Below the pieces are notes generated by a model. That model ran no database searches. It was not told where the DNA came from and worked only from the letters and a program-made list of their open reading frames with translations. Both the position numbers and the translations under genes were made by a program. Positions 1 through 39,697 of a DNA stretch of 39,697 nt are shown piece by piece. This stretch comes from a virus. How positions within the stretch are numbered: position 1 is the first letter of the stretch; every line of letters begins with the position of its first letter. Location: the IMG/VR virus record IMGVR_UViG_3300027138_000008, positions 1-39,697 of that record. One strand, written 5' to 3'.

Positions 1-92
1 TCTTTGTGCCCGCCCTACGCCCCTGCAGCACCAGAGCAAACACGGGTCAACCAAAGTCGACCAGGGTGCGGCGGTCGAAACGGTCGCAAGCC

Positions 93-107
93 ACCACCAA
101 TGGTGGT
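93..107. repeat. 15-nt palindrome ACCACCA-A-TGGTGGT
   Basis: Seven-base arms ACCACCA and TGGTGGT flank a single A. It lies in the noncoding leader. It could be an operator or simply one of several inverted repeats clustered at the two ends of the sequence; nothing in the sequence decides its role. Confidence 0.55.
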
Positions 108-170
108 AGGATGGGGGCAAGCCAATGGCCGATAGGCCGACGGCACCCACCACCACGGCAAAGCGACAGC

Positions 171-196
171 CCGCCAGGGCTGGCGGTTTGACCGCC
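171..196 (+). promoter_or_regulatory. overlapping alternative hairpins in the first leader
   Basis: CCGCCA (171-176) can pair with TGGCGG (181-186) around the loop GGGC, while GGCGGT (182-187) can instead pair with ACCGCC (191-196) around TTG. The two stems share GGCGG, so only one can form at a time. This sits 17 nt before the first start codon and has the layout of an attenuator or translational switch. The pairing is visible in the sequence; the regulatory role is inference. Confidence 0.4.
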
Positions 197-212
197 TACC
201 GCACCTAGACAG

Positions 213-479
213 ATGAACACTTGCGCAATGACTGCGGCCGAGAGGCTGCAGGCTGACTACGGCGTCACCGACCCCGACGCCCTAGCCCAAGAGCTGCAGG
301 ACAGCAAAGCGGCCATGCTCAGCTGGGCAGGTCGCAATGGCCGCTACACCGTCGACGACCTGGAGGCGGTGTTGCAAGGCCACGGCGAAACCCTGCGCAA
401 CTGGGCAGACGAGTGCGAGGCCCACGGCTTCCACAACGTCTACAGCGCCGAAGCGGTGCTGACCTGGCTTGGGTACTGA
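213..479 (+). CDS. small acidic early protein, unknown function
   Basis: An 88-residue reading frame beginning with ATG at 213; a second in-frame ATG at 228 would give an 83-residue form. The product is acidic and predicted to be mostly helical, with no cysteine pair, membrane segment or signal peptide. It is the first gene of the rightward arm and follows the structured leader, so it should be among the first proteins made after infection. Function not recognised. Its position fits host-takeover or anti-defence proteins of T7-like phages, but that is inference from position only. Confidence 0.7.
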   Translation: MNTCAMTAAERLQADYGVTDPDALAQELQDSKAAMLSWAGRNGRYTVDDLEAVLQGHGETLRNWADECEAHGFHNVYSAEAVLTWLGY

Positions 480-489
480 AGACAGCCCG

Positions 490-507
490 GAGGGGGCCAC
501 GGCCCTT
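490..507 (+). repeat. GC-rich hairpin before the second gene
   Basis: AGGGGGC and GCCCTTT pair around CACG (seven pairs, two of them G-U in RNA). It is the first of several GC-rich hairpins placed between early genes, each followed by an ACCCACCAC-like word and a start codon. It lacks a clean T-run after the stem, so it is a weak terminator at best. Confidence 0.4.
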
Positions 508-552
508 TCCCTGCTGCCCTCACCGGTAGCACCCACCACAGACCCACGAACC

Positions 553-894
553 ATGACAACCAAAGAACAGACGGAGCGGATCCCAGCAAACGAGGGGCAT
601 CCGACTGAGCGCCGCGGCCTGCTCACGGGCCCGGTGATCGTGACCCGATACCTCGGGCCCACTAATCACCGCGGCAGTCGTATCAAGGCCACGCACAAGC
701 GGGACTCTGAAGCGACCTGGCAGGCAACAGTGGCATGGGATCACAGCCTCAGCGCAGAGGCCAACCACCAGGCCGCAGCAGAACAGCTGCTGGGCCGGTG
801 GATCACCCGTGACGACCTGGTGATCATGGCCGCGGCCAATGATCACGACGCCTATTACTGGCTGGTCGTCGGTGCCTGGCAACTGGAGGCCTGA
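553..894 (+). CDS. small early protein with YLGPTN..GSRIKA motif
   Basis: A 113-residue protein from ATG 553. The frame is open from 469, but 553 is preferred because an ACCCACCAC word (531-539) precedes it and because the upstream part looks like noncoding leader. Residues near 35-50 read VTRYLGPTNHRGSRIKAT, a motif I have seen in small uncharacterised proteins of phages and bacterial mobile elements. The C-terminal half ends with alternating aromatic and hydrophobic residues (YYWLVVGAWQLEA). The molecular function is unknown; a compact mixed alpha/beta domain seems likely. It is followed after 3 nt by a tiny membrane protein gene. Confidence 0.8.
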   Translation: MTTKEQTERIPANEGHPTERRGLLTGPVIVTRYLGPTNHRGSRIKATHKRDSEATWQATVAWDHSLSAEANHQAAAEQLLGRWITRDDLVIMAAANDHDAYYWLVVGAWQLEA

Positions 895-897
895 CCC

Positions 898-1032
898 ATG
901 CGGTCCCTGCCCGTTGCCGCGGCCGTCACCCTGGGGACTGCAGCCCTCTGGCTGCTGGCCCTGGGGGAACTGGCCCGCCAGCCGGTCACCCATACCGGCA
1001 CCCAACCGCTCACCCACCACGTCGACCGATGA
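898..1032 (+). CDS. 44-residue single-span membrane protein
   Basis: ATG 898 opens a 44-codon frame ending in TGA at 1030-1032. Residues 5-26 (PVAAAVTLGTAALWLLALGE) are strongly hydrophobic, with Arg2 before and an Arg/His-rich tail after, so it looks like a one-pass inner-membrane peptide. The gene sits 3 nt after the previous stop, and its stop overlaps the next start as ATGA (1029-1032), so translation is probably coupled on both sides. It is short enough to escape ordinary gene callers. Function unknown; early membrane peptides in phages can act in superinfection exclusion or host shut-off, but nothing here proves that. Confidence 0.6.
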   Translation: MRSLPVAAAVTLGTAALWLLALGELARQPVTHTGTQPLTHHVDR

Positions 1033-1415
1033 CCGCAACCCTTTATCCCTGCGACTACAGCCACGTCCTGCACACCATCCCTACGGATGACAAGCACCGG
1101 GTGAGCGTCCGCCAGATCATTGATGCTGTCGACGCCTGGGCCCAGTTCAATCTCAGAACTGAGCATGGCCTGGCCATCAACGGCAATGAGATCTACTGGC
1201 TCGAATACGCCGAAGACCAAAACCACAAAGTGCTGGCCCACACCGGGCCACTGCTCCGGCTGGGGGTTCGGCCTGGCTCAAACGAGGGGTGGATCTTGCT
1301 GGCCTATGTGGACGGCAAGGAGACACCAATCCTGAGCGCCAAGCTTTGGACCCTTGACGCTGCGCAGCAGCTCATGGCCGCCCTGTCACGGGCCAGTGCC
1401 GACTGCATCGTTTGA
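1029..1415 (+). CDS. early protein, unknown function (128 aa)
   Basis: ATG 1029 overlaps the previous stop by four bases (ATGA), and a perfect ACCCACCAC word ends 8 nt upstream. The 128-residue product is predicted to be mixed alpha/beta, with no membrane segment and no recognisable catalytic motif. The middle (EIYWLEYAEDQNHKVLAHTG) alternates aromatic and acidic residues and the C-terminus is a helix. Not recognised. It belongs to the block of early genes that T7-like phages use against host functions. Confidence 0.75.
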   Translation: MTATLYPCDYSHVLHTIPTDDKHRVSVRQIIDAVDAWAQFNLRTEHGLAINGNEIYWLEYAEDQNHKVLAHTGPLLRLGVRPGSNEGWILLAYVDGKETPILSAKLWTLDAAQQLMAALSRASADCIV

Positions 1416-1419
1416 TTGC

Positions 1420-1445
1420 CACCAGGGCCCCAGCAATGGGGCCCA
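1420..1445 (+). repeat. intergenic hairpin repeat, copy 1
   Basis: A 26-nt unit whose core is GGGCCCC-AGCAAT-GGGGCCC, a perfect 7-bp GC stem with a six-base loop. The same unit recurs at 1627-1652 with one base changed, in the loop. It lies directly after a stop codon and is followed by ACCCACCAC (1448-1456) and the next ATG at 1460. No T-run follows, so it is more likely an RNA-stability or processing element than a strong terminator. Confidence 0.7.
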
Positions 1446-1459
1446 TTACCCACCACGCC

Positions 1460-1624
1460 ATGACCCACTACATCAACCGCCAATCCGGCCGGTATCACGA
1501 GACCGTCGACGAGTACAGCAGCAAAGGCGAGGCCCTTAAGGTCCTGCCCGAGTACCAGTACTCAGAACACGGCCGCGCCTACTACTACATCAGCGCAGTG
1601 CCCCGGCCTAACTGGAAAGACTGA
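1460..1624 (+). CDS. 54-residue early protein (EYQxSExGxxYYxS type)
   Basis: ATG 1460 lies 3 nt after an ACCCACCAC word; the frame is open from 1412, but that part is the hairpin leader. The product is 54 residues and reads EALKVLPEYQYSEHGRAYYY followed by ISAVPRPNWKD. A short helix, an EYxxSE..YYxS core and a closing Pro-x-x-Trp resemble a family of very small phage and plasmid proteins whose function is not established. The match is from memory and moderate. Confidence 0.7.
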   Translation: MTHYINRQSGRYHETVDEYSSKGEALKVLPEYQYSEHGRAYYYISAVPRPNWKD

Positions 1625-1626
1625 CC

Positions 1627-1652
1627 CACCAGGGCCCCAGCGATGGGGCCCA
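1627..1652 (+). repeat. intergenic hairpin repeat, copy 2
   Basis: Second copy of the 26-nt unit at 1420-1445 with a single difference (AGCGAT instead of AGCAAT in the loop); the 7-bp GGGCCCC/GGGGCCC stem is unchanged. It again follows a stop codon and is followed by a CCCACCAC word and a start codon. Conservation of the stem in both copies suggests that the RNA structure is what matters. Confidence 0.7.
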
Positions 1653-1674
1653 CCACATACCACCACTGCACACC

Positions 1675-1839
1675 ATGTACACCGTTTGGCAAACCCTGGC
1701 CGATGATGTTGACCAGTTCTGTTGCTACTGCCCCACCAAGCAGGACGCACAGGACGAGGTCGACCGAATTAACTCCGCCCTAGCGGAGCGGGGCATACCT
1801 GGATGGGTCAGTTCCGCCTACTGGGACTGGTTCAGGTAG
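1675..1839 (+). CDS. 54-residue early protein, unknown
   Basis: ATG 1675 to TAG 1837-1839 encodes 54 residues beginning MYTVWQTLADDVDQFCCYCP. Three cysteines cluster at residues 16-19 as CCYC, which might bind metal or form a disulphide. A short acidic helix follows and the protein ends with a Trp/Tyr-rich segment. It lies immediately after the second hairpin repeat and a GCCCACCAC word (1648-1656). It is shorter than most gene-calling limits and not recognised. The dense spacing with neighbours and the shared leader pattern support it as real. Confidence 0.6.
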   Translation: MYTVWQTLADDVDQFCCYCPTKQDAQDEVDRINSALAERGIPGWVSSAYWDWFR

Positions 1840-1941
1840 CCCACCTTTAAGAACAACAACAACGCCCCTACCACCACCGGCGGGGGCGCCATGCTGGCCC
1901 AGCCGCGGCCCCCAGGCCCGGCACCCACCCACCACAGCCCC

Positions 1942-2187
1942 ATGCACAAACACCTTGCGTTGGCCTTGGTCATTGCGTTGGCCCAGGCCCCAGCCCATGC
2001 CCAGCAAGCCGCCTGCTTCTCAACCATTGAGGGGTGGGGGTGCGTTGGTCCCAATGGCACCACTCAACTGCAACCCACCGTTGTCCCTGGCCAATGGGCC
2101 GTCAGTGGACAAACCAAAGACGGTGGTTTGTATGGGTGCCAGGCAACGACGACCCTCAGTGGGGACGTCGTATCCACCTGCCGATGA
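1942..2187 (+). CDS. secreted or periplasmic early protein with signal peptide
   Basis: ATG 1942 follows a perfect ACCCACCAC word by 6 nt and encodes 81 residues. Residues 1-20 (MHKHLALALVIALAQAPAHA) form a textbook Sec signal peptide: positive start, hydrophobic core and an AHA cleavage site before QQ. The mature part (about 61 residues) has four cysteines (in QQAACF, GWGCVG, LYGCQA and the final CR), consistent with two disulphides outside the cytoplasm, and is rich in Gly and Thr. The frame is open upstream to 1891, but that would bury the signal peptide. Function unknown; an early exported phage protein could change the cell surface or block superinfection. Its stop overlaps the next start (ATGA). 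Confidence 0.7.
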   Translation: MHKHLALALVIALAQAPAHAQQAACFSTIEGWGCVGPNGTTQLQPTVVPGQWAVSGQTKDGGLYGCQATTTLSGDVVSTCR

Positions 2188-2381
2188 ACAAGCCCCATGA
2201 ACTGCTGATCCAGGTATCAGCCCGCCTCTTTGCGGACGGTCATCAAGACCTTGCCTATGACGTCAGACAACTGGCCCTTAGGTGGACACCAGAAAGGGAA
2301 AAGCGGCTGATCCACGGACCAGAAGAGGACTACGGCTTTGACCCTGACTGCGACCCTCAACACCCACTACACGACACATGA
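2184..2381 (+). CDS. 65-residue early protein, unknown
   Basis: ATG 2184 overlaps the stop of the preceding gene (ATGA), and its own stop overlaps the next ATG at 2378. The product starts MNKPHELLIQVSARLFADGH, a likely amphipathic helix, and ends in an acidic, proline-rich tail with two aspartate clusters. No known domain is recognised. The frame continues upstream to 2034, but translational coupling argues for 2184. Confidence 0.65.
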   Translation: MNKPHELLIQVSARLFADGHQDLAYDVRQLALRWTPEREKRLIHGPEEDYGFDPDCDPQHPLHDT

Positions 2382-2533
2382 CTACTGAACCCACTGAATT
2401 GCAACTGATGGAGCTGTACCGGGACTGGTGGAAAGACAGTTACGGCGGCACCCCCAACAACCAGAACACGATCATCGCTGCTGCCTTTGCCCGCCATGTG
2501 TTGGCCACGTTTGGAGCAAAGTCCAATGGCTGA
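2378..2533 (+). CDS. 51-residue early protein, unknown
   Basis: ATG 2378 overlaps the previous stop (ATGA), and the end overlaps the next gene, which starts at 2526. The 51 residues begin MTTEPTELQLMELYRDWWKD and contain a short aromatic helix followed by a hydrophobic helix near AAAFARHVLATF. It is too short for most callers, but four-base and eight-base overlaps on both sides support it. Function not recognised. Confidence 0.6.
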   Translation: MTTEPTELQLMELYRDWWKDSYGGTPNNQNTIIAAAFARHVLATFGAKSNG

Positions 2534-2804
2534 CCTTTCCCCCGCAGCACAGGCAGTGCTGGATGCTGCCAACAATGTCAATTCCTACGGTCCAGATGAT
2601 TGCCTCAACGAATCTCGCTGGATTGCCGCCGCGGCCCTGCGAGCTGCTGCGGATCAGGTGGTGCCCTGGAAACCAGAACCAACAGAGGAGTCCGTTGGTT
2701 CAACAATTGACTTTGGTTACACATGGGCATTGTTTTCCAAAGCAAATGATGTGAGGCAAGAACTTCTTGCCATCGCCGACGAGCTGGAGGGTCTCGATGA
2801 CTGA
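2526..2804 (+). CDS. LSPAAQAVLDA-family small protein (copy 1)
   Basis: A 92-residue protein from ATG 2526, overlapping the previous gene by eight bases. The N-terminus MADLSPAAQAVLDAANNV, a central WIAAAALRAAADQV helix and a C-terminal LLAIADELE helix are characteristic of a small helical family I associate with picocyanobacteria and their phages; its biochemical role is unknown. A diverged paralogue lies on the opposite strand at 12037-12258. The frame extends upstream to 2487, but 2526 matches the family's N-terminus. Confidence 0.8.
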   Translation: MADLSPAAQAVLDAANNVNSYGPDDCLNESRWIAAAALRAAADQVVPWKPEPTEESVGSTIDFGYTWALFSKANDVRQELLAIADELEGLDD

Positions 2805-3096
2805 GTCACAGGTCATGGCACGGCTCAGGCACGAGATCCTGACCGTCCTCTACAAGATCTACCCACGGGTGCTGACCCACCCGCAGCTGGTCGCTGAGGT
2901 GCAGGTGCCCTTCCTCACCCGTGACAAGCAATGGCTGCAGGATGCAGTCAAGGAACAGATCCAGGTGCTGCAGCAGGCCAGCCTCCTGCGCCCCAGCCAG
3001 GGGGGTTACACCCTCACTGACCGTGGTCGTATGGACAGGCAGCAGGCAGCCAGGTTTCTAACCAAGAAGATCGACCCACCGAACGACGCAGCATGA
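2797..3096 (+). CDS. winged-helix-like early DNA-binding protein
   Basis: A 99-residue protein from ATG 2797, overlapping the previous gene by eight bases. The layout helix (MARLRHEILTVLYKIYPRVL), helix, recognition-like helix, then a short strand ending GGYTLTDRGRMDRQQ resembles a winged-helix fold; the phrase GGYTLTDRG is typical of the wing of such domains. It could be an early transcription regulator or an inhibitor of a host DNA-binding complex. The fold is inferred from sequence pattern and the target is unknown. Its stop overlaps the next start. Confidence 0.65.
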   Translation: MTESQVMARLRHEILTVLYKIYPRVLTHPQLVAEVQVPFLTRDKQWLQDAVKEQIQVLQQASLLRPSQGGYTLTDRGRMDRQQAARFLTKKIDPPNDAA

Positions 3097-3365
3097 GCAG
3101 GATCAATGAGTTCGACCGGCGAGCTGAGTCGATCACGCACGACAGGGCAGCGGACTACGGCGACCCACGGGTCAGCTTTGATCGCATTGCCCTGATGTGG
3201 TCAGCCATCACGGGGGCAGACATCACTGCCCACCAGGTGGCTCACATGATGATCTGCCTCAAGCTCAGCCGGCTACAAAACACACCCGATCACCTCGATT
3301 CCTATGTCGACATCGTCGGTTACGCAAGATGCGGCGTCCTCTGTGGCCCGCAAGAGCCCAGCTGA
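3093..3365 (+). CDS. DUF6378-like phage protein
   Basis: A 90-residue protein from ATG 3093 (ATGA overlap). It shows the pattern RAADYGDPRVSFDRIALMWS, then AHQVAHMMICLKLSRL, then HLDSYVDIVGYA. Conserved Tyr-Gly, Lys-Leu-Ser-Arg and Asp-Ser...Asp-Ile-x-Gly-Tyr features match a widespread phage domain that I believe is DUF6378. The family is helical and common in tailed phages; no activity has been established to my knowledge. The domain identification is fairly secure, the number less so. Confidence 0.85.
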   Translation: MSRINEFDRRAESITHDRAADYGDPRVSFDRIALMWSAITGADITAHQVAHMMICLKLSRLQNTPDHLDSYVDIVGYARCGVLCGPQEPS

Positions 3366-3582
3366 GATCAAGTTCGGTATTGACCTGGTCGGTCGCTGCA
3401 TGGCTGCCTACTGGCAAGACCGTGAAGCATTGATCGACGGGCACAGTCGGATGCAGGCAGTGATGACTGTCATTGCTGAAGAGGTGCGCACCTGGGCACC
3501 TGACCCAGGCCAAGCACGCATCTGCTACCTGGCCATCAACGAGGTGGCTGACCGCCTTATCCGTGATTCCCATGCCGTATGA
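3304..3582 (+). CDS. early protein, unknown (92 aa)
   Basis: The frame runs from ATG 3304, overlapping the previous gene by 62 nt; a GTG at 3343 would shorten the overlap to 23 nt and may be the real start (79 residues). The conserved-looking part begins at about SPAEIKFGIDLVGRCMAAYW and is helical throughout, ending INEVADRLIRDSHAV. No known family is recognised. It is followed by another overlapping gene. Confidence 0.65.
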   Translation: MSTSSVTQDAASSVARKSPAEIKFGIDLVGRCMAAYWQDREALIDGHSRMQAVMTVIAEEVRTWAPDPGQARICYLAINEVADRLIRDSHAV

Positions 3583-3730
3583 CCCCAGCTGGCGGAAGGA
3601 AGACGAGGCCCGAGTCGCACGACTTGAGCGCCTGTACTTCCTTGATGGCCGCAAACACCTGCCCTATGGGCACCCACTGCACGGCACCTACACCGGACTC
3701 CATGAGAAATACAAGGAGCACGGATGGTGA
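3572..3730 (+). CDS. 52-residue basic early protein, unknown
   Basis: ATG 3572 overlaps the previous stop by eleven bases. The product begins MPYDPSWRKEDEARVARLER, a charged helix, and continues with a His/Gly/Tyr-rich segment (LPYGHPLHGTYTGLHEKYKE). The frame is open upstream, but the chosen start gives an overlap typical of this operon. Function not recognised. Confidence 0.6.
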   Translation: MPYDPSWRKEDEARVARLERLYFLDGRKHLPYGHPLHGTYTGLHEKYKEHGW

Positions 3731-3996
3731 ACCGAGGCAGGGACCACAACTTCACCCTGTACTGGGGTGAGGACAACGCACCCAATCTTGGTGAAGGCAT
3801 CAGCCGTACCACCAAGCAGAACTCCAGTCTCTGGAGGATTGAGGTCAGCTTCGGCAACGGTCGCCCCATGCGGGAGTTGATCCGCGCCGTTAATCACAGC
3901 CAAGCACGGTACTTTGCGAAGAACCGTTACCCATCTGCCACTAACATCACACTCATCGGTAAAGCCAATGACTCAAACATCCAACCGTCTACCTGA
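3724..3996 (+). CDS. early protein, unknown (90 aa)
   Basis: ATG 3724 overlaps the preceding gene by seven bases. The 90 residues are predicted mostly beta: an opening DHNFTLYWGEDN, a strand LWRIEVSFGN, a helix MRELIRAVNHSQARYFAKNR and a closing strand ATNITLIGKA. This beta-beta-alpha-beta order suggests a small compact fold. The middle 'HSQARYFAKNRYPSAT' pattern recalls small phage proteins that couple a helix to an RYP turn, but I cannot name the family. Confidence 0.7.
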   Translation: MVNRGRDHNFTLYWGEDNAPNLGEGISRTTKQNSSLWRIEVSFGNGRPMRELIRAVNHSQARYFAKNRYPSATNITLIGKANDSNIQPST

Positions 3997-4294
3997 GAAC
4001 GTCTACGTCCTTAAGGAACAACCGCCAATCAAAGATGATGCTGATGCCAAAGGCAATGTGCTGTACTTCAAGCCAGGCTTTGGCTGGTACTCAGGCTACT
4101 GGCATTCGGCACACATGGATGGCACTACGCACTGGACGTTCCTGCCAGAGCGCCCGCCAGAACTGGAAAATACCAAGGTCAAAAGAGAGAAGGCATACCA
4201 GGCATGGATGAAACTTTTCCCTACTGAGTTTGATCCTGCTGCTGATGCTTTGATCCGCCTTGGTTTTAACGCCGGCTGGGAACGTGCGAACTGA
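3968..4294 (+). CDS. early protein, unknown (108 aa), upstream of RNA polymerase
   Basis: Read from ATG 3968, overlapping the previous gene by 29 nt; the open frame extends to 3914, but that start lies deeper in the neighbour. The product has an aromatic central part (KPGFGWYSGYWHSAHMDGTT) followed by THWTFLPERPPE and a C-terminal helix. The repeated Trp/His/Tyr pattern looks like a small beta-sheet ligand- or protein-binding domain. Not recognised. It is the last small gene before the RNA polymerase, whose start overlaps it. Confidence 0.7.
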   Translation: MTQTSNRLPENVYVLKEQPPIKDDADAKGNVLYFKPGFGWYSGYWHSAHMDGTTHWTFLPERPPELENTKVKREKAYQAWMKLFPTEFDPAADALIRLGFNAGWERAN

Positions 4295-6668
4295 AGAGGA
4301 CCAACTTCTTCTTGAACAGAAGGAGATGCTCATGCTCGGGGCAGATCGCTATGAACTGCTCCGCAACAACCGCATCGCCAAGAAGATGGAGTCCCTCTCC
4401 ACCTACGGCAATGCGTTGGTGACCATGGGTGTGGATGGTGTGGTCGCTGAGATCAGGCACCACCGCAAGCGGCTGCAGCAGGGCAAGGCAGGTGTCTATT
4501 ACAGGGACCTGCAACCCCTGCTTACCCTGGCCCCGCACAAGATCGCTGCCTGTGCATTGCGGGTGGTGGTCGACAGCATCAGCCAGCCCATGCGCCTGGC
4601 CCCTCTGGCCCTGTCAGTAGGGGAGAAGCTATGGGTCGAAGCCATGCTGGCCCGTGCCAGTAGGTGGGAGTTGGCCAACCACAAGCGCGTCCGTGGCCGC
4701 CTCGTTGAGAAGGTCAAGGACATCAAGCGGATGGCCAACAGCGAGACCTGGACGACAGAGCAGCGGTCGGCAACGGGTGCGTTCCTGGTGTCGGTCATTG
4801 CCCAGAAGACAGGGCTCATCAAGTTGGAGAAGGTGCGCATCGGCATCCGCACAATTACCTATGTGCGGGCAACGGCCGAGTGCTTCGACTTCATCGGCAA
4901 GGTCAACGAGACAGGGCAGTTCCTCTGCCCCTTCCAGTTGCCCATGCTGGTCAAGCCCAGGGACTGGAATGACCCAATCTCAGGCGGCTACCTCACTGAC
5001 ATACCCAACAGCACCCTGCTGAAGGACAACAGTGAGATGGTTGCCCAGCACTGCAGTGGCAGTGAGCCTTTTATCAAGGCCACCAACCACCAGCAGTCCG
5101 TCGCATGGCAGGTGAATCGGTGGGTGCTTGAGCATCTTGAACATGCGTGGGAAAAGAACATCTCAGTCGGCAAGCTGATGCCTCGGGAGGGGTGGCAGCC
5201 GCCGCCCTATCCGAAGCACCTGCCCGAGGGTCACCCAGACATCACCCAGTGGCGCTTCAACGCACGGCAGATCCACGAGAAGAACGACAAGACCAGGAAC
5301 AAACGCATCGCCCTGGCGAAGCAGTTGTGGCTGGCTCGTCGCTTTGCGGATGAGCAGGAGCTGTACTTCCCAATGCAGCTGGACTTCAGGGGGCGGTACT
5401 ACTACAGGCCGCCGTTCCTGAACCCGCAGACCAACGACGTCGGTCGTGCCCTGCTGCAGTTCGCCAACGGTCAGCCCATTGCCAATGAACAGGAGGCCGA
5501 ATGGCTTTGGGTTCATGGCGCCAACCTCTATGGGTACAGCAAGCACAGCTGGCGTACTCGGCTGGATTGGGCGCACCAGAACAAGGAAGCAATCTGTCGC
5601 TCCGGCATGGAGCCATGGCAGATGACTGAGTTCTGGGCACAGGCCGATGACCCGTGGCAGTTCCTTGCCTTCTGCCGTGCCGCATACCAGTACGTCGAAA
5701 AGCGTGGCGCCTATCGGTGCCAGCTACCTGTCGTCCTGGACTGCACCTGCTCTGGCATCCAGCACTACTCAGCCCTGCTCCGCAATGAGCAAATGGCTGA
5801 GCTGGTGAACCTGATGCCCAGCGACCATCCACAGGACATCTATTCCCGTGTGTTGGCTGCTGTCCTTGAGCACCTGCGGGCTGATGTGGACAACCCACAC
5901 GCCCGTTCCTGGCTGGAGCTGCAGCCTGACCGCTCCCTCACCAAGGCAGTGGTCATGACCATGCCGTACTCAGCCACCAGGCAGACAGTCTTCAAGCACT
6001 GCCAGGTCTGGTCGTTTGAGAGGACGCTGCAGCTGTACGGCACAGACGGATGGCACTTCAAAGACGGTGCCATCGCAGCCATGCATTACATGGCAACCCT
6101 GCTCAGCAATGAGACGGCCAACATGATCGGCCCCGCCAAGGCAGCAATGCACTGGTTTAAGCGGGTCGGGGCACTGGCTGGTGAGAGCAACACGCCTATG
6201 CAGTGGACCTCTCCATCAGGCCTGACCATCAGGCAGCAGTACCCCAACATGCGCCGTGTGCTGATCAAGCTGCACCATCTATCCCCTGTGCTCGGGCGCT
6301 TTGCCTTGAACATCGAGGAGCTTGGGCTCAACCCCAAGCGAATGGGCAACGGCCTCAGCCCGAACATCATCCACTCACTGGACGCCAGTCACATGGCGCT
6401 CACGACAGTCGATGCGTTCGCCAAGGGTGTAATCAATCTGGGTGGCATCCACGATTGCTTTGCCACCACACCAGCTGAGATGAGCAGGGTGCGGGACTCT
6501 GTCCGCAACACCTTTGCTGCCATGTACTCCGAGGACTGGTTCACCACCATCTCCTCTGAGCTGCTGGCCCAGCTGCCAGCTGAACTGCACAGCAAACTGC
6601 CCGAACTTCCCGCAGTTGGGAACTTCGACATCGACCTGGTCCGCAGGTCCAACTACTTCATTACCTGA
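4284..6668 (+). CDS. T7-type single-subunit DNA-directed RNA polymerase
   Basis: This enzyme transcribes phage middle and late genes from phage promoters. Numbering from GTG 4284 (794 residues), the catalytic set is complete: Asp486 in LDCTCSGIQHYSALLRNE, Lys554 in SLTKAVVMT, Tyr562 in MPYSAT and Asp724 in GGIHDCFA, matching T7 Asp537, Lys631, Tyr639 and Asp812. The Lys-to-Tyr spacing of eight is the same as in T7, and the NGLSPNIIHSLDASHM motif is also kept. Start choice is uncertain: TTG 4260, GTG 4284 and ATG 4326/4332 are all possible. AAGGAG at 4320-4325 is well placed for ATG 4332, but the segment EDQLLLEQKEMLMLGADRY aligns with the T7 N-terminus, so an upstream start is favoured. At about 794 residues it is shorter than the 883-residue T7 enzyme. 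Its gene is followed after 2 nt by the SSB gene. Confidence 0.96.
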   Translation: MRTEEDQLLLEQKEMLMLGADRYELLRNNRIAKKMESLSTYGNALVTMGVDGVVAEIRHHRKRLQQGKAGVYYRDLQPLLTLAPHKIAACALRVVVDSISQPMRLAPLALSVGEKLWVEAMLARASRWELANHKRVRGRLVEKVKDIKRMANSETWTTEQRSATGAFLVSVIAQKTGLIKLEKVRIGIRTITYVRATAECFDFIGKVNETGQFLCPFQLPMLVKPRDWNDPISGGYLTDIPNSTLLKDNSEMVAQHCSGSEPFIKATNHQQSVAWQVNRWVLEHLEHAWEKNISVGKLMPREGWQPPPYPKHLPEGHPDITQWRFNARQIHEKNDKTRNKRIALAKQLWLARRFADEQELYFPMQLDFRGRYYYRPPFLNPQTNDVGRALLQFANGQPIANEQEAEWLWVHGANLYGYSKHSWRTRLDWAHQNKEAICRSGMEPWQMTEFWAQADDPWQFLAFCRAAYQYVEKRGAYRCQLPVVLDCTCSGIQHYSALLRNEQMAELVNLMPSDHPQDIYSRVLAAVLEHLRADVDNPHARSWLELQPDRSLTKAVVMTMPYSATRQTVFKHCQVWSFERTLQLYGTDGWHFKDGAIAAMHYMATLLSNETANMIGPAKAAMHWFKRVGALAGESNTPMQWTSPSGLTIRQQYPNMRRVLIKLHHLSPVLGRFALNIEELGLNPKRMGNGLSPNIIHSLDASHMALTTVDAFAKGVINLGGIHDCFATTPAEMSRVRDSVRNTFAAMYSEDWFTTISSELLAQLPAELHSKLPELPAVGNFDIDLVRRSNYFIT

Positions 6669-6670
6669 CC

Positions 6671-7306
6671 ATGAACTACAACCTGATCGACAAGCTGAAG
6701 CTGACCACCCCTGTCGCCAAGCTGAAGTACCCCAAGCTCATCGAACCCGAAACCAAGTTCAACCCTGAGGGTGTCTACAAGGCGACGGCCATCATCGACT
6801 CAGCTGAGGCCGCGGCCCTGGCTGATGCGTTAGACGACCTGCTCACCCGCCACAAGGCATCACTCAAGCAGCAGGACCCCAGCAAGAAGGACTGGAAGCT
6901 GGCTGACCTGCCCTATGGGTACGAGGAGATCGACGGCAAGCCTTGCTTTGTCATCAAGACCAAGATGAAAGCCAAGGGCATTGACCGTGACGGTCGTGCC
7001 TGGTCCTCAGTGCCTGCCCTGTTTGATTCCAAGGGCCAGCCAGTCCGTGACCGTGAGTCGCTCAAGGGCATGTGGTCCGGCACCGTGGCCAAGGTGAACT
7101 TTGAGGCCTGCCCCTTCTATCAGGCAGCCCTTGGTGCCGGCATTACCCTCAGGTTGAAAGCCGTCCAGATCATTGACCTGGTCGAAGGTGGCGGCAGCGC
7201 AGAGAGCTTTGGCTTTGGCGAAGAAGACGGATGGACTGGCACCACGTCGGAGGCAACGCCGTTCGACAGCACGACGTCCGTCCCCTTCGACGAGTCGGAC
7301 TTCTGA
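6671..7306 (+). CDS. T7 gp2.5-like single-stranded-DNA-binding protein
   Basis: A 211-residue protein that coats single-stranded DNA and recruits replication enzymes. It begins MNYNLIDKLKLTTPVAKLKY, has the single OB-fold layout of gp2.5 proteins, and ends in an acidic tail closing with Phe (VPFDESDF). That tail is the hallmark of this class; in T7 it contacts the DNA polymerase and helicase. It is notable that the contact tail is kept although no phage DNA polymerase is present. The gene lies between RNA polymerase and endonuclease, as in T7. Its last 134 bases overlap the longest possible endonuclease frame. Confidence 0.93.
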   Translation: MNYNLIDKLKLTTPVAKLKYPKLIEPETKFNPEGVYKATAIIDSAEAAALADALDDLLTRHKASLKQQDPSKKDWKLADLPYGYEEIDGKPCFVIKTKMKAKGIDRDGRAWSSVPALFDSKGQPVRDRESLKGMWSGTVAKVNFEACPFYQAALGAGITLRLKAVQIIDLVEGGGSAESFGFGEEDGWTGTTSEATPFDSTTSVPFDESDF

Positions 7307-7679
7307 TTACCGCTCCAAGTTTGAGCAGCAAGTTGCTGGCTCATTGAACAAGCGGGGCTTGCCCTTCAACTACGAGGGGCAGGTCCTGCCTTACGTCATC
7401 CACGCCAAGTACACCCCTGACTTCATCCTGCCCAATGGGGTGATGGTTGAAACCAAGGGGCTACTGACACCAGAGGACCGGCGAAAGATGATCGCAGTCA
7501 AGGCCGCACACCCTGACAAGGACATCCGGTTCTGCTTCATGCGGGCTGACACCAAGCTGTCCCGTAGACCTGGCGCCCTGGCCTATTGGCAATGGGCTGA
7601 GCGCCACGGCTTCCTTTGGTGTGAAGGCCACATACCCACCACCTGGTACACCCATGCCATCCAAGTTCCTGAGGCATGA
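7173..7679 (+). CDS. T7 gp3-like endonuclease I (Holliday-junction resolvase), unusual start
   Basis: Cuts branched DNA and degrades host DNA in T7. All catalytic residues are present, numbered in the longest frame: Glu51 (SKFEQQV), Asp83 (YTPDFILPNG), Glu93 and Lys95 (VETKG), the PD-(D/E)xK set of T7 endonuclease I. The family part starts at about 7303 (DYRSKFEQQ), one or two codons from the SSB stop (7304-7306). In this frame there is no ATG before the catalytic Glu: only TTG 7173, GTG 7188 and TTGs at 7209 and 7215, all deep inside the SSB gene, which would add an Arg-rich tail of about 30-45 residues. Either a non-ATG start, a +1 frameshift from the SSB (TTC-T-GAT), or a sequence error must explain it. 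The 3' end overlaps the primase start. Confidence 0.88.
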   Translation: MTWSKVAAAQRALALAKKTDGLAPRRRQRRSTARRPSPSTSRTSDYRSKFEQQVAGSLNKRGLPFNYEGQVLPYVIHAKYTPDFILPNGVMVETKGLLTPEDRRKMIAVKAAHPDKDIRFCFMRADTKLSRRPGALAYWQWAERHGFLWCEGHIPTTWYTHAIQVPEA

Positions 7680-9264
7680 ACCATGCCCGGAGTGCAATAG
7701 CAAAGACAACCTGGCCCGCTACGACGACGGTCACGCCACCTGCTTTGGGTGCGGGTACCAGGAGCAGCCGGCCAAGCAAGAGAAGCTGGAACCTATCCAG
7801 CCCATGGCACCAGTGATCACACCCCTGCTGGACTTCGTCACCACCAAAGCCCTCGATAAGCGGGGGATTCAGGCAGATACCTGCAAGCTGTACGGCTACG
7901 GGTACAGCGTCCACAACGACGTGCCTGTGCAGGTCGCTACCTACCGCAACCAGCAAGGCAAGGAGGTGGCGCAGCACCTGCGTGATGCGAACAAGCGGTT
8001 CCGTTGGCTGGGTGACACCAGCAATATGCAGCTTTGGGGCCAGCACCTCTGGCGTCAAGGCATCGGTGGCAGTGGTGGTGCCTTTGTCGTTGTCACCGAG
8101 GGGGAGATCGACGCCATGTCGGTCAGCCAGGTGCAAGGCAACCGCTATCCCGTGGTGTCCCTACCCAATGGGGCACAGTCGGCCAAGAAGTACCTGGCTG
8201 CCAATGCTGCATGGCTCAGCCAGTTCCAGCGGATTGTGCTGTGCTTCGACAGCGATGAGCCTGGCCAGAAGGCAGCAGAAGATGCACTGACTGTCCTGCC
8301 CCTGGGCAAGGCAGCCATCTGCCGGCTGCCCCGCAAGGACGCCAACGACATGCTGCTGGCAGGCGAGGGTGACCTGCTGCGTGACCTGCTGTGGAAGGCC
8401 ACACCCTCCCGACCCGACGGCATCGTCAATGCCAGCGAACTATGGGAGGAACTGATCAAGCCGGGTGCTGTCTCCATCTGTCAGTACCCATGGCCTGTCC
8501 TCAACGCCATGACCCGTGGCTTCAGGAAAGGGGAGATGACCACCATCTGTGCTGGCAGTGGGGTGGGCAAGTCATCCGTCTGCCGGGAGATTGCCCATCA
8601 CTTCCTGCGGCAGGGCCTGCGTGTTGGCTACATCGCCCTTGAGGAGTCCACCAAGCGGACCATGCAGGGCATCGTTGGCATTGAACTCAACAAGCCCATC
8701 CACCTGGACCCCACCTTGGCCACCGAGGAGGAGCTGCGTGATGGCTTTGAGCGGGTGCTTGGCACCGGTCGCTGCTTCCTGTACGACCACTTTGGGTCCA
8801 TGGATCCCGAGCACCTCATCAACAAGATCAGGTACCTGGCCGATGCAGAGGGCGCAGACATGGTGATCCTTGACCACCTGACCATCGTGATCAGTGGCCT
8901 TGCTGACCTCGATGAACGGCGTGCCATCGACGTCACCTGCACCAAGCTGCGCCAAGTGGTCGAGCAGTCAGGCATTGGCCTGATCCTGGTGTCCCACCTC
9001 AAGCGACCAGAAGGGCGTGGCCATGAGGAAGGTGCTCAGACCTCCCTGTCGCAGCTGCGTGGCAGCCATGCCATTGCCCAGTTGTCGGACATGGTGATCG
9101 GCGCTGAACGCAACCAGCAAGGCGATGTGGCTGAGCGCAATGAACTGCAGCTAAGGGTCCTGAAGAACCGCTTCAGCGGGCAGACAGGACCCTGCGACAA
9201 GCTGCTTTACGACCAGGACACCGGTCGACTGGTCGTTCCTATGTCCCATTACTTCGGCACCTAA
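7654..9264 (+). CDS. T7 gp4-like primase-helicase
   Basis: A two-headed enzyme that makes RNA primers and unwinds DNA at the fork as a hexamer. Numbered from ATG 7654 (536 residues): zinc-binding Cys11, Cys14, Cys30 and Cys33 (CPEC...CFGC); TOPRIM motifs VVTEGEID (Glu149) and CFDSDEPG (Asp199); Walker A AGSGVGKSS at 300-308; Walker B-like MVILDHL and the LILVSHLKRPEGRG motif in the RecA-like helicase half. Length is close to the 566 residues of T7 gp4. An ACCCACCAC word (7634-7642) precedes the start, which overlaps the endonuclease gene by 26 nt. In T7 the DNA polymerase follows shortly after; here two small genes lie in its place. Confidence 0.95.
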   Translation: MPSKFLRHEPCPECNSKDNLARYDDGHATCFGCGYQEQPAKQEKLEPIQPMAPVITPLLDFVTTKALDKRGIQADTCKLYGYGYSVHNDVPVQVATYRNQQGKEVAQHLRDANKRFRWLGDTSNMQLWGQHLWRQGIGGSGGAFVVVTEGEIDAMSVSQVQGNRYPVVSLPNGAQSAKKYLAANAAWLSQFQRIVLCFDSDEPGQKAAEDALTVLPLGKAAICRLPRKDANDMLLAGEGDLLRDLLWKATPSRPDGIVNASELWEELIKPGAVSICQYPWPVLNAMTRGFRKGEMTTICAGSGVGKSSVCREIAHHFLRQGLRVGYIALEESTKRTMQGIVGIELNKPIHLDPTLATEEELRDGFERVLGTGRCFLYDHFGSMDPEHLINKIRYLADAEGADMVILDHLTIVISGLADLDERRAIDVTCTKLRQVVEQSGIGLILVSHLKRPEGRGHEEGAQTSLSQLRGSHAIAQLSDMVIGAERNQQGDVAERNELQLRVLKNRFSGQTGPCDKLLYDQDTGRLVVPMSHYFGT

Positions 9265-9270
9265 CCCACC

Positions 9271-9492
9271 ATGAACTGCCCCAAATGCAACTGCGACCTC
9301 ATCCGCACCACGATGAGCAGGCACTATCGAGGCGACGCCGTCATTCGCAGGAGGAAATGCACAAGCTGCAGCCATGCCTGGTACACGATGGAAACACGCA
9401 TCCCAACTGAAGCCATCACCCACGCCAGGACCTACGAAGGGATGTCCACCTTCAAGCTGCGCAAAGACTTTGAGGGCTTGGCTTACCGATGA
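9271..9492 (+). CDS. zinc-ribbon protein resembling the NrdR N-terminal domain
   Basis: A 73-residue protein starting MNCPKCNCDLIRTTMSRHYR. Two CxxC knuckles (CPKC and CTSC) are separated by an IRRRKC segment and followed by HAWYTMETRI. Order and spacing resemble the zinc ribbon of the ribonucleotide-reductase regulator NrdR, but the ATP-cone domain is missing, so it is not a full NrdR. It may bind DNA or a partner protein. It occupies, with the next gene, the place where T7 has its DNA polymerase gene. The start follows the primase stop by 6 nt. Confidence 0.8.
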   Translation: MNCPKCNCDLIRTTMSRHYRGDAVIRRRKCTSCSHAWYTMETRIPTEAITHARTYEGMSTFKLRKDFEGLAYR

Positions 9493-9713
9493 AAGACGAC
9501 TTCTTCTCTGCCCCTGGTCTGCGCATCCAGCGGCAGGTCGACAAATGGAATGGCCCCATGTACCTGGCATGGAAGCCCAACGCCTCCATGTGTTTCGGGG
9601 ATCGCAAGGCCCTGCTCAAGTTCTGCTCCTGGCCAATCAAGACACCGACAGGCGACCGCCTTCGGGAATGGCTGAACAGCTTTGACGAAACATCCACCAC
9701 ACCTGCACCCTGA
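9489..9713 (+). CDS. 74-residue protein between zinc ribbon and exonuclease
   Basis: ATG 9489 overlaps the zinc-ribbon stop (ATGA). The sequence opens MKDDFFSAPGLRIQRQVDKW and has several Trp and Lys residues but no catalytic motif that I know. The pattern MYLAWKPNASMCFGDRKALL and a final helix with a Thr/Pro tail suggest a small soluble protein. Coupling to the zinc ribbon and closeness to the exonuclease (3 nt) suggest a replication or recombination accessory. Not recognised. Confidence 0.7.
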   Translation: MKDDFFSAPGLRIQRQVDKWNGPMYLAWKPNASMCFGDRKALLKFCSWPIKTPTGDRLREWLNSFDETSTTPAP

Positions 9714-9716
9714 CCA

Positions 9717-10484
9717 ATGACCCTCCTCATCGACGCCGACTGGCTGCTCTACTCCGCCTGTGCTGCCAATGAATGTGACATCCGCTGGGATGAATGGACC
9801 CACACCCTTCACCTTGAGCAGGGCGACGTCAAGGACTACATCAGCAGCAGGCTGTCCTTCTGGCGGGACGTCACCTTCGACAACGACCTGATCCTCTGCT
9901 TCTCCGACTACCCCACCTTCCGCCACGAGATCCACCAGGAGTACAAGGCCAACCGCCTTGGCAAACGCAAGCCCCTTGGTATCAGGGACCTCCGCATCTG
10001 GATGGAGCAGACTTACCCAGCCCGTACCTACACAGGCCTGGAAGCTGACGACGTGCTCGGTCTGCTGGCTACCAATGGCACGCTGTCCAACCCCATCGTT
10101 ATCTCACCCGACAAGGACATGCGCACCGTGCCGTGCCAGATCCTGGTCAACGACCAGATCGAAGTGATCCACCCCGTCGATGCAAACCGTGCATGGATGA
10201 CCCAGGTTCTAACCGGTGACAGCACCGACAACTACCAAGGCCTCAAGGGCTTTGGCCCTGTCACTGCAGCCAAGACCCTGGCTGATGCCATCACTTTGCC
10301 TGAGCTATGGGACAAGGTGCTGGGTGCCTACAAGAAGGCTGGCCGTACCTACAGCGATGCAGTCCACATGGCCAGGCTTTCCCGCATCCTGCGCCACGGT
10401 GACTACGACTTCGACACCAGCACCATCAATCTATGGGAGCCAGACACCGACCCCCTCATGAAGGTCGACCAGGCATCCCAATAG
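9717..10484 (+). CDS. T7 gp6-like 5'-3' exonuclease (FEN/PIN family)
   Basis: Removes RNA primers and degrades host DNA in T7. Metal-binding acidic residues of the FEN family are in order: Asp6 (LLIDADWLLYS), Asp64 (FSDYPTFRHE), Glu109, Asp111 and Asp112 (GLEADDVLG), Asp132 and Asp134 (SPDKDM), Asp168 and Asp171 (TGDSTDNYQG), followed by the helix-hairpin-helix segment LKGFGPVTAAKTL. The arch segment EYKANRLGKRKPLG is also typical. Length (255) is in the range of phage members (T7 gp6 has about 300). It is the last rightward gene; its end overlaps the last leftward gene by 29 nt. Confidence 0.94.
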   Translation: MTLLIDADWLLYSACAANECDIRWDEWTHTLHLEQGDVKDYISSRLSFWRDVTFDNDLILCFSDYPTFRHEIHQEYKANRLGKRKPLGIRDLRIWMEQTYPARTYTGLEADDVLGLLATNGTLSNPIVISPDKDMRTVPCQILVNDQIEVIHPVDANRAWMTQVLTGDSTDNYQGLKGFGPVTAAKTLADAITLPELWDKVLGAYKKAGRTYSDAVHMARLSRILRHGDYDFDTSTINLWEPDTDPLMKVDQASQ

Positions 10485-38817: not shown

Positions 38818-38843
38818 AGAGAGGGGAGCGACTACCCCTCTCT
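38818..38843 (-). promoter_or_regulatory. perfect 9-bp hairpin before the small terminase gene
   Basis: AGAGAGGGG and CCCCTCTCT pair around an eight-base loop. It starts in the stop codon of the winged-helix gene and ends 24 nt before the small terminase start. No T-run follows on either strand, so it is more likely an mRNA processing, stability or protein-binding site than a terminator. Confidence 0.6.
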
Positions 38844-39279
38844 AACAGGCACCCACCACAGATGCACAGTCCCACTGTAGGTCACTCCCTTCGTAATCCA
38901 CATACCTGTACCGGCTAGCTGCCTTTGCCCTCTCACTGGCCGGTCCAAGGACCTCCAAGGCCGCTCTCTGCGCTTCCAGGTGGTCAGGGTGCGTAACCCG
39001 ATAACGACGCTTGTGGCTGCCCTGCCTTGTCGGCACCAGATGCAAGAACTGAATCAGCCCGTCATCCAGCAACAAGTCGATGGCCTTGATCACCGTTCCA
39101 TTCGACATGTGGCACAGGTCAGCCAAGGCCTTATGCGACAGCACTGTCGTCCCACCACAATTCTTCCTCTGGTCATGCCATGCCGCTTCCCACATCACCC
39201 CATACACAGCCCCGCAAGCCTGACTCAGTGCCATCGCCTCCCTCATCAATGGACAGGCCCCAACCAGCAGTACCGACAT
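38842..39279 (-). CDS. winged-helix DNA-binding protein, possible regulator
   Basis: 145 residues from ATG 39279; a TTG codon lies directly before it. The central segment LSHKALADLCHMSNGTVIKA followed by LDDGLIQFLHLVP and HKRRYRVTHPDH has the helix-turn-helix plus wing pattern of MarR/replication-initiator-type domains. The N-terminal half is hydrophobic and helical (MREAMALSQACGAVYGVMWE). It is the first gene of the leftward arm, next to the repeat-rich noncoding end, so it may control the divergent region. The repeats at 39287-39351 just upstream could be its operator. Family not identified. Confidence 0.7.
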   Translation of the reverse strand: MSVLLVGACPLMREAMALSQACGAVYGVMWEAAWHDQRKNCGGTTVLSHKALADLCHMSNGTVIKAIDLLLDDGLIQFLHLVPTRQGSHKRRYRVTHPDHLEAQRAALEVLGPASERAKAASRYRYVDYEGSDLQWDCASVVGAC

Positions 39280-39286
39280 CAAGGGT

Positions 39287-39555: not shown

Positions 39556-39640
39556 CACCGCCGGCCACCTGAGGGGCACCCTGGGGTACTTGGACAGGCT
39601 GGGGCACCCGCTGGACAGCGGGCAGCCCAGGCACCCCAAG

Positions 39641-39697
39641 GTGTCTTGTGTGTCCGCGTACCTGCAGTGAGGACAGGTGCGCGGACACACAAGACAC
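39641..39697. repeat. 24-bp terminal inverted repeat ending exactly at the last base
   Basis: The left arm (39641-39664, starting GTGTCTTGTGTGTCCGCG) and right arm (39674-39697, ending CGCGGACACACAAGACAC) are complementary over 24 bases with a single T/G mismatch, around the loop CAGTGAGGA. The sequence ends with the last base of the right arm. Either this is a real structure (hairpin end, or part of a region cut when a circular assembly was opened) or it is a fold-back artefact at a contig end. No copy of this sequence exists at the left end. Confidence 0.8.

Follow-up and report, generated by a model that had tools for sequence, protein, structure and literature searches.

A T7-like phage replication module lacking both a DNA polymerase gene and the polymerase-docking end of the helicase

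The DNA analysed here (the window) is the whole 39,697-nucleotide IMG/VR record IMGVR_UViG_3300027138_000008, which that database classes as linear and without a terminal repeat. At its right end (39640-39697) the sequence forms an imperfect inverted repeat (CTTGTGTGTCCGCG...CGCGGACACACAAG), which may be genuine or may have arisen in assembly. The following genes were considered:

3914-4294 (likely start ATG 3968), plus strand: DUF551-like protein of 126 aa upstream of the RNA polymerase gene, from locus comparison
4260-6668, plus strand: T7-type single-subunit RNA polymerase (RNAP; PF00940, E=5e-86; phrog_414, E=1e-184)
6671-7306, plus strand: gp2.5-like SSB with an acidic tail ending DESDF (phrog_112, E=1e-28)
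7173-7679, plus strand: endonuclease I of the T7 gene 3 type (PF05367, E=1e-33)
7621-9264, plus strand: primase-helicase of the T7 gene 4 type (phrog_239, E=1e-181)
9271-9492, plus strand: zinc-ribbon protein of 73 aa, of the NrdR N-terminal type without the ATP-cone domain (PF22811, E=8e-9)
9489-9713, plus strand: protein of 74 aa, a C-terminally truncated copy of a cyanophage family of about 105 aa (phrog_37139, E=1e-22)
9717-10484, plus strand: 5'-3' exonuclease of the T7 gene 6 type (PF02739, E=5e-12; phrog_107, E=4e-54)
38842-39282, minus strand: winged-helix protein weakly matching the N-terminal part of lambda O-like initiators (phrog_391, E=2e-5)

For the primase-helicase, a start at ATG 7654 (residue 12) is likelier, as homologous matches begin at residues 11-14. 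Based on ORFs and family matches, the genes for RNAP, SSB, endonuclease I, primase-helicase and exonuclease follow the T7 order, and a T7-type replisome set was present, comprising a gp4-like primase-helicase, a gp2.5-like SSB, a gp6-like exonuclease and the T7-type RNAP. The place of T7 gene 5 was occupied only by the zinc ribbon and the 74-aa protein, as the preliminary description of a T7-ordered module without gene 5 had it.

The family A polymerase profile PF00476 gave no match in any of the six frames of the window, and the same search matched in the positive controls P-SSP7 and Rhizobium phage Pasto. None of 30 IMG/VR relatives matched PF00476, nor did P-SCSP1u. The profiles PF00136 (PolB) and PF07733 (PolIII-alpha) were likewise silent in the window while their controls worked, so that the A, B and PolC/DnaE-type profiles proposed as a check all came out negative there; a PF03175 search was uninformative since no control gave a match. 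When four T7-like polymerase sequences were compared to the window by tblastn, only noise was obtained (best E = 0.096). Pfam or synteny assigned the remaining long ORFs to RNAP, the virion or packaging, and the earlier observation that no other long frame resembles a family A polymerase was thus confirmed by profile, tblastn and ORF assignment alike.

The polymerase-less T7-like plan is not new. It was published in 2022 for the MPP-C cyanopodoviruses P-SCSP1a-u and P-SCSP2, which were isolated on Prochlorococcus MED4 and reported without a DNA polymerase, and eighteen MPP-C isolates can be grown although no polymerase gene is identifiable in them (Cai et al. 2022, PMC9860041). Literature searches for further polymerase-less T7-like phages returned nothing besides the MPP-C papers. 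The window and P-SCSP1/2 share a T7-like gene set without DNA polymerase and a small genome; the window primase-helicase is 59% identical to that of P-SCSP1, its RNAP also finds its best matches there (48% identity, vs about 30% to the other phages compared), and the helicase lacks an acidic aromatic end in both. The P-SCSP phages differ in lacking the zinc ribbon/74-aa pair at the gene 5 position; in P-SCSP1u the primase-helicase and exonuclease genes overlap by 4 bp with nothing between them. MPP-A/B phages such as P-SSP7 also share the order RNAP, SSB, endonuclease, primase-helicase, exonuclease, but they encode a family A polymerase between the last two genes, in two pieces in the case of P-SSP7, and the helicase ends ...NPSTDF. 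A further difference from MPP-C lies in the structural block of the window (portal to fibres, 13338-34942, minus strand, about 21.6 kb), which lies in the opposite orientation to the replication module (1-10484, plus strand). The same inversion was seen in six near relatives (L003, L007, L011, L013, L015 and L022), whereas in 48 other loci of the lineage, P-SCSP1 included, the portal follows the exonuclease on the same strand.

A maximum-likelihood tree built from primase-helicase sequences, in which P-SCSP2 was not included, placed all sampled polymerase-less sequences in one group (support 100/100), and P-SCSP1 was nested within a wider polymerase-less lineage that holds the window. The sister group of this clade is uncertain, as some polymerase-bearing rows lie on long branches. 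Judged from its relatives only, the window phage probably infects a picocyanobacterium. A search for the primase-helicase in genome contigs gave no close match; what it found were remote phages with a polymerase, located in alphaproteobacterial MAGs, and two such contigs (L107 and L108) encode T7-like modules with a polymerase, an acidic helicase tail and a primase-helicase 46-48% identical to that of the window. No auxiliary metabolic genes were found among the window proteins scanned, which included some of the small ORFs.

Since the record is linear and without end repeats, the window alone is no proof that the polymerase gene is absent, and it had to be considered that the gene lies on a part missing from the record through contig truncation or misassembly. 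Relatives with differently placed ends argue strongly against this. Eight metagenomic contigs of 38.7-43.1 kb, with primase-helicases 78-81% identical to that of the window, end at different genes, and several of them span the terminase-to-RNAP junction that corresponds to the window's ends, where only small early genes were found. No polymerase was detected in any of the eight, and the circular gene order closes without one. In 95 loci of the lineage including P-SCSP2, moreover, the gene order passes from primase-helicase to exonuclease without an intervening polymerase, an arrangement (94 lineage loci in another count) that speaks against a missing part as well. Truncation was accordingly rejected, the preliminary description having rightly called it unlikely, and we regard a gene on a missing part as scarcely credible. 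It is also very improbable that one of the uncharacterised proteins is a polymerase of highly divergent sequence. Many small early proteins belong to no family, and Cai et al. were unable to exclude such a gene (PMC9860041), but the early unknowns are small, reaching about 140 aa at most, family or synteny accounts for the large ORFs as above, few of the early unknowns are common to P-SCSP1u, and none was found in P-SCSP2. We conclude that a DNA polymerase gene is truly absent from the window phage.

The end of the helicase was compared in an alignment that took in T7, P-SSP7, Pasto and P-SCSP1u. T7 gp4 has acidic C-terminal tails which, along with the phenylalanine at their tip, attach to basic patches on gp5 (PMC12593628, PMC12230644). 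Escherichia phage T7 has the same replication enzymes as the window except gene 5; it encodes gp5, and its gp4 keeps this acidic, Phe-ended tail. The window primase-helicase ends ...TGRLVVPMSHYFGT (DTGRLVVPMSHYFGT), without an acidic aromatic-ended tail, and the T7 arrangement of a family A polymerase docked on such a tail was thus not found in the window. Across 316 loci, the helicase ended in an aromatic residue in 210 of 221 polymerase-bearing loci and in 0 of 95 polymerase-less ones; when only distinct tails were counted, the numbers were 74/78 and 0/29, respectively. The median net charge of the tail was -3 to -8, depending on the group, in polymerase-bearing loci vs 0 to -2 in polymerase-less loci. 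Exceptions include one group (L144-L148) with a polymerase and a non-aromatic helicase end. Tail length does not discriminate, as pelagiphage tails have 11 residues; the discriminating features are the terminal aromatic residue and the negative charge. Because the tail and the polymerase were lost on one branch, the association amounts to a single evolutionary event, which makes it suggestive and not an independent statistical proof, and a different cause for the change in the tail is conceivable. Cai et al. (PMC9860041), when searched for the helicase C-terminus and acidic residues, mention neither. The absence of the polymerase-docking helicase end is what is new here and, as read from the aligned sequences, would be a specific sign of replisome rewiring.

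The SSB of the window ends ...VPFDESDF, and its tail is acidic and Phe-ended throughout the relatives too. The acidic tail noted earlier is therefore present, but it is not diagnostic of a retained polymerase partner, as the helicase's own docking end has been lost.

The two small proteins at the gene 5 position had been put forward as candidate recruiters of a host polymerase, or as processivity factors, replacing gene 5. Besides their position, the distribution of the zinc ribbon is in line with such a role: 54 of the 71 window-like loci carry it but none of the 92 polymerase-bearing ones does, and P-SCSP2 encodes one at another place, in the early region, with none between primase-helicase and exonuclease. 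However, no P-SCSP1-like locus (0/23) carries it, the 74-aa protein was found in only 16 of the 71 window-like loci, and both are missing from P-SCSP1u and from G021 and G022, which are likewise polymerase-less. The gap between primase-helicase and exonuclease is 70 bp or less in 34 loci of the lineage (23 P-SCSP1 and 11 window-like), so the gene pair is not a general feature of relatives at this place; its absence from these polymerase-less loci and from P-SCSP2 led us to reject it as required recruiters, and the growth of P-SCSP1 without both argues against a general role. The 74-aa family also has homologues in uvMED S28-C3, whose annotation includes a DNA polymerase, in uvMED S39-C11 and in the siphophage S-CBS3. 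Homologues of the protein keep a conserved C-terminus (...GFGPECH...NTRT-I) that is lost in the window copy; in three loci with primase-helicases 97-100% identical to that of the window (L002, L006 and L007) the C-terminus is kept, and the exonuclease gene lies some 170 bp further from the primase-helicase gene than it does in the window. A recruiting role for the pair is thus very doubtful, and the two genes are accessory and no general replacement of gene 5.

Two other early or terminal genes were compared across the lineage. The DUF551-like protein was found in all 40 suitable lineage loci and in 0 of 92 polymerase-bearing loci, and tblastn against 50,697 phage records gave matches only in P-SCSP1 phages. 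It is lineage-specific and nearly universal in the polymerase-less clade; as it was not found in P-SCSP2 and its predicted fold had no significant PDB match, it was rejected as a universal recruiter and is kept as a candidate. The winged-helix protein is sporadic, occurring in the window and in one relative (G027) only, and was rejected.

Taken together, the window very likely represents a near-complete genome of a T7-like phage, probably one of a picocyanobacterium, from a clade that lost the family A polymerase, kept the other T7 enzymes and has its DNA synthesised by a host polymerase. In many clade members the primase-helicase directly adjoins the exonuclease. The loss of the polymerase-holding tip of the helicase, together with the lack of a polymerase gene, makes it very likely that the phage borrows the host enzyme, and the earlier proposal that it might recruit a host polymerase remains the best explanation and a plausible one. 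In the proposed mechanism, transcripts of the phage RNAP and the phage primase would start DNA synthesis, the phage helicase would open the fork, and a host polymerase, recruited through a contact other than a T7-type helicase tail, would synthesise DNA, after which the phage exonuclease would remove primers and make recombination ends. The universal RNAP, SSB, primase-helicase and exonuclease are better candidates for the recruiting contact than the patchy small proteins. A scan of the phage proteins for beta-clamp-binding motifs found no conserved motif standing out at a terminus; two conserved matches both lay inside the helicase sequence and were not convincing.

Pol III with its clamp would be the likelier host enzyme, as it is the replicative polymerase of the host. 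That DNA polymerase I is borrowed instead is conceivable, if the less probable choice. T7-type initiation relies on transcripts and short RNA primers, which counts in favour of Pol I. T7 gp5 and Pol I are also both of family A, but the main task of host Pol I is repair, and both host enzymes are raised as candidates by Cai et al. (PMC9860041). On balance, and with some reservation, we favour a T7 replisome rewired in a widespread clade, in which one branch saw the loss of both the polymerase and the helicase docking end, and the phage helicase may now work with a replicative polymerase of the host by way of another contact, as a hybrid replisome of a type not yet described.

The T7 plan without a polymerase, so far described for 18 marine isolates, belongs to a larger clade: one query led to 492 related IMG/VR stretches, of which the best 80 were examined. 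Two attractive recruiter candidates, the zinc ribbon and the 74-aa protein, have been removed, and the missing polymerase-docking helicase end offers a specific, testable sign of what may be a rewired replisome. Surveys that use DNA polymerase as a marker miss such phages.
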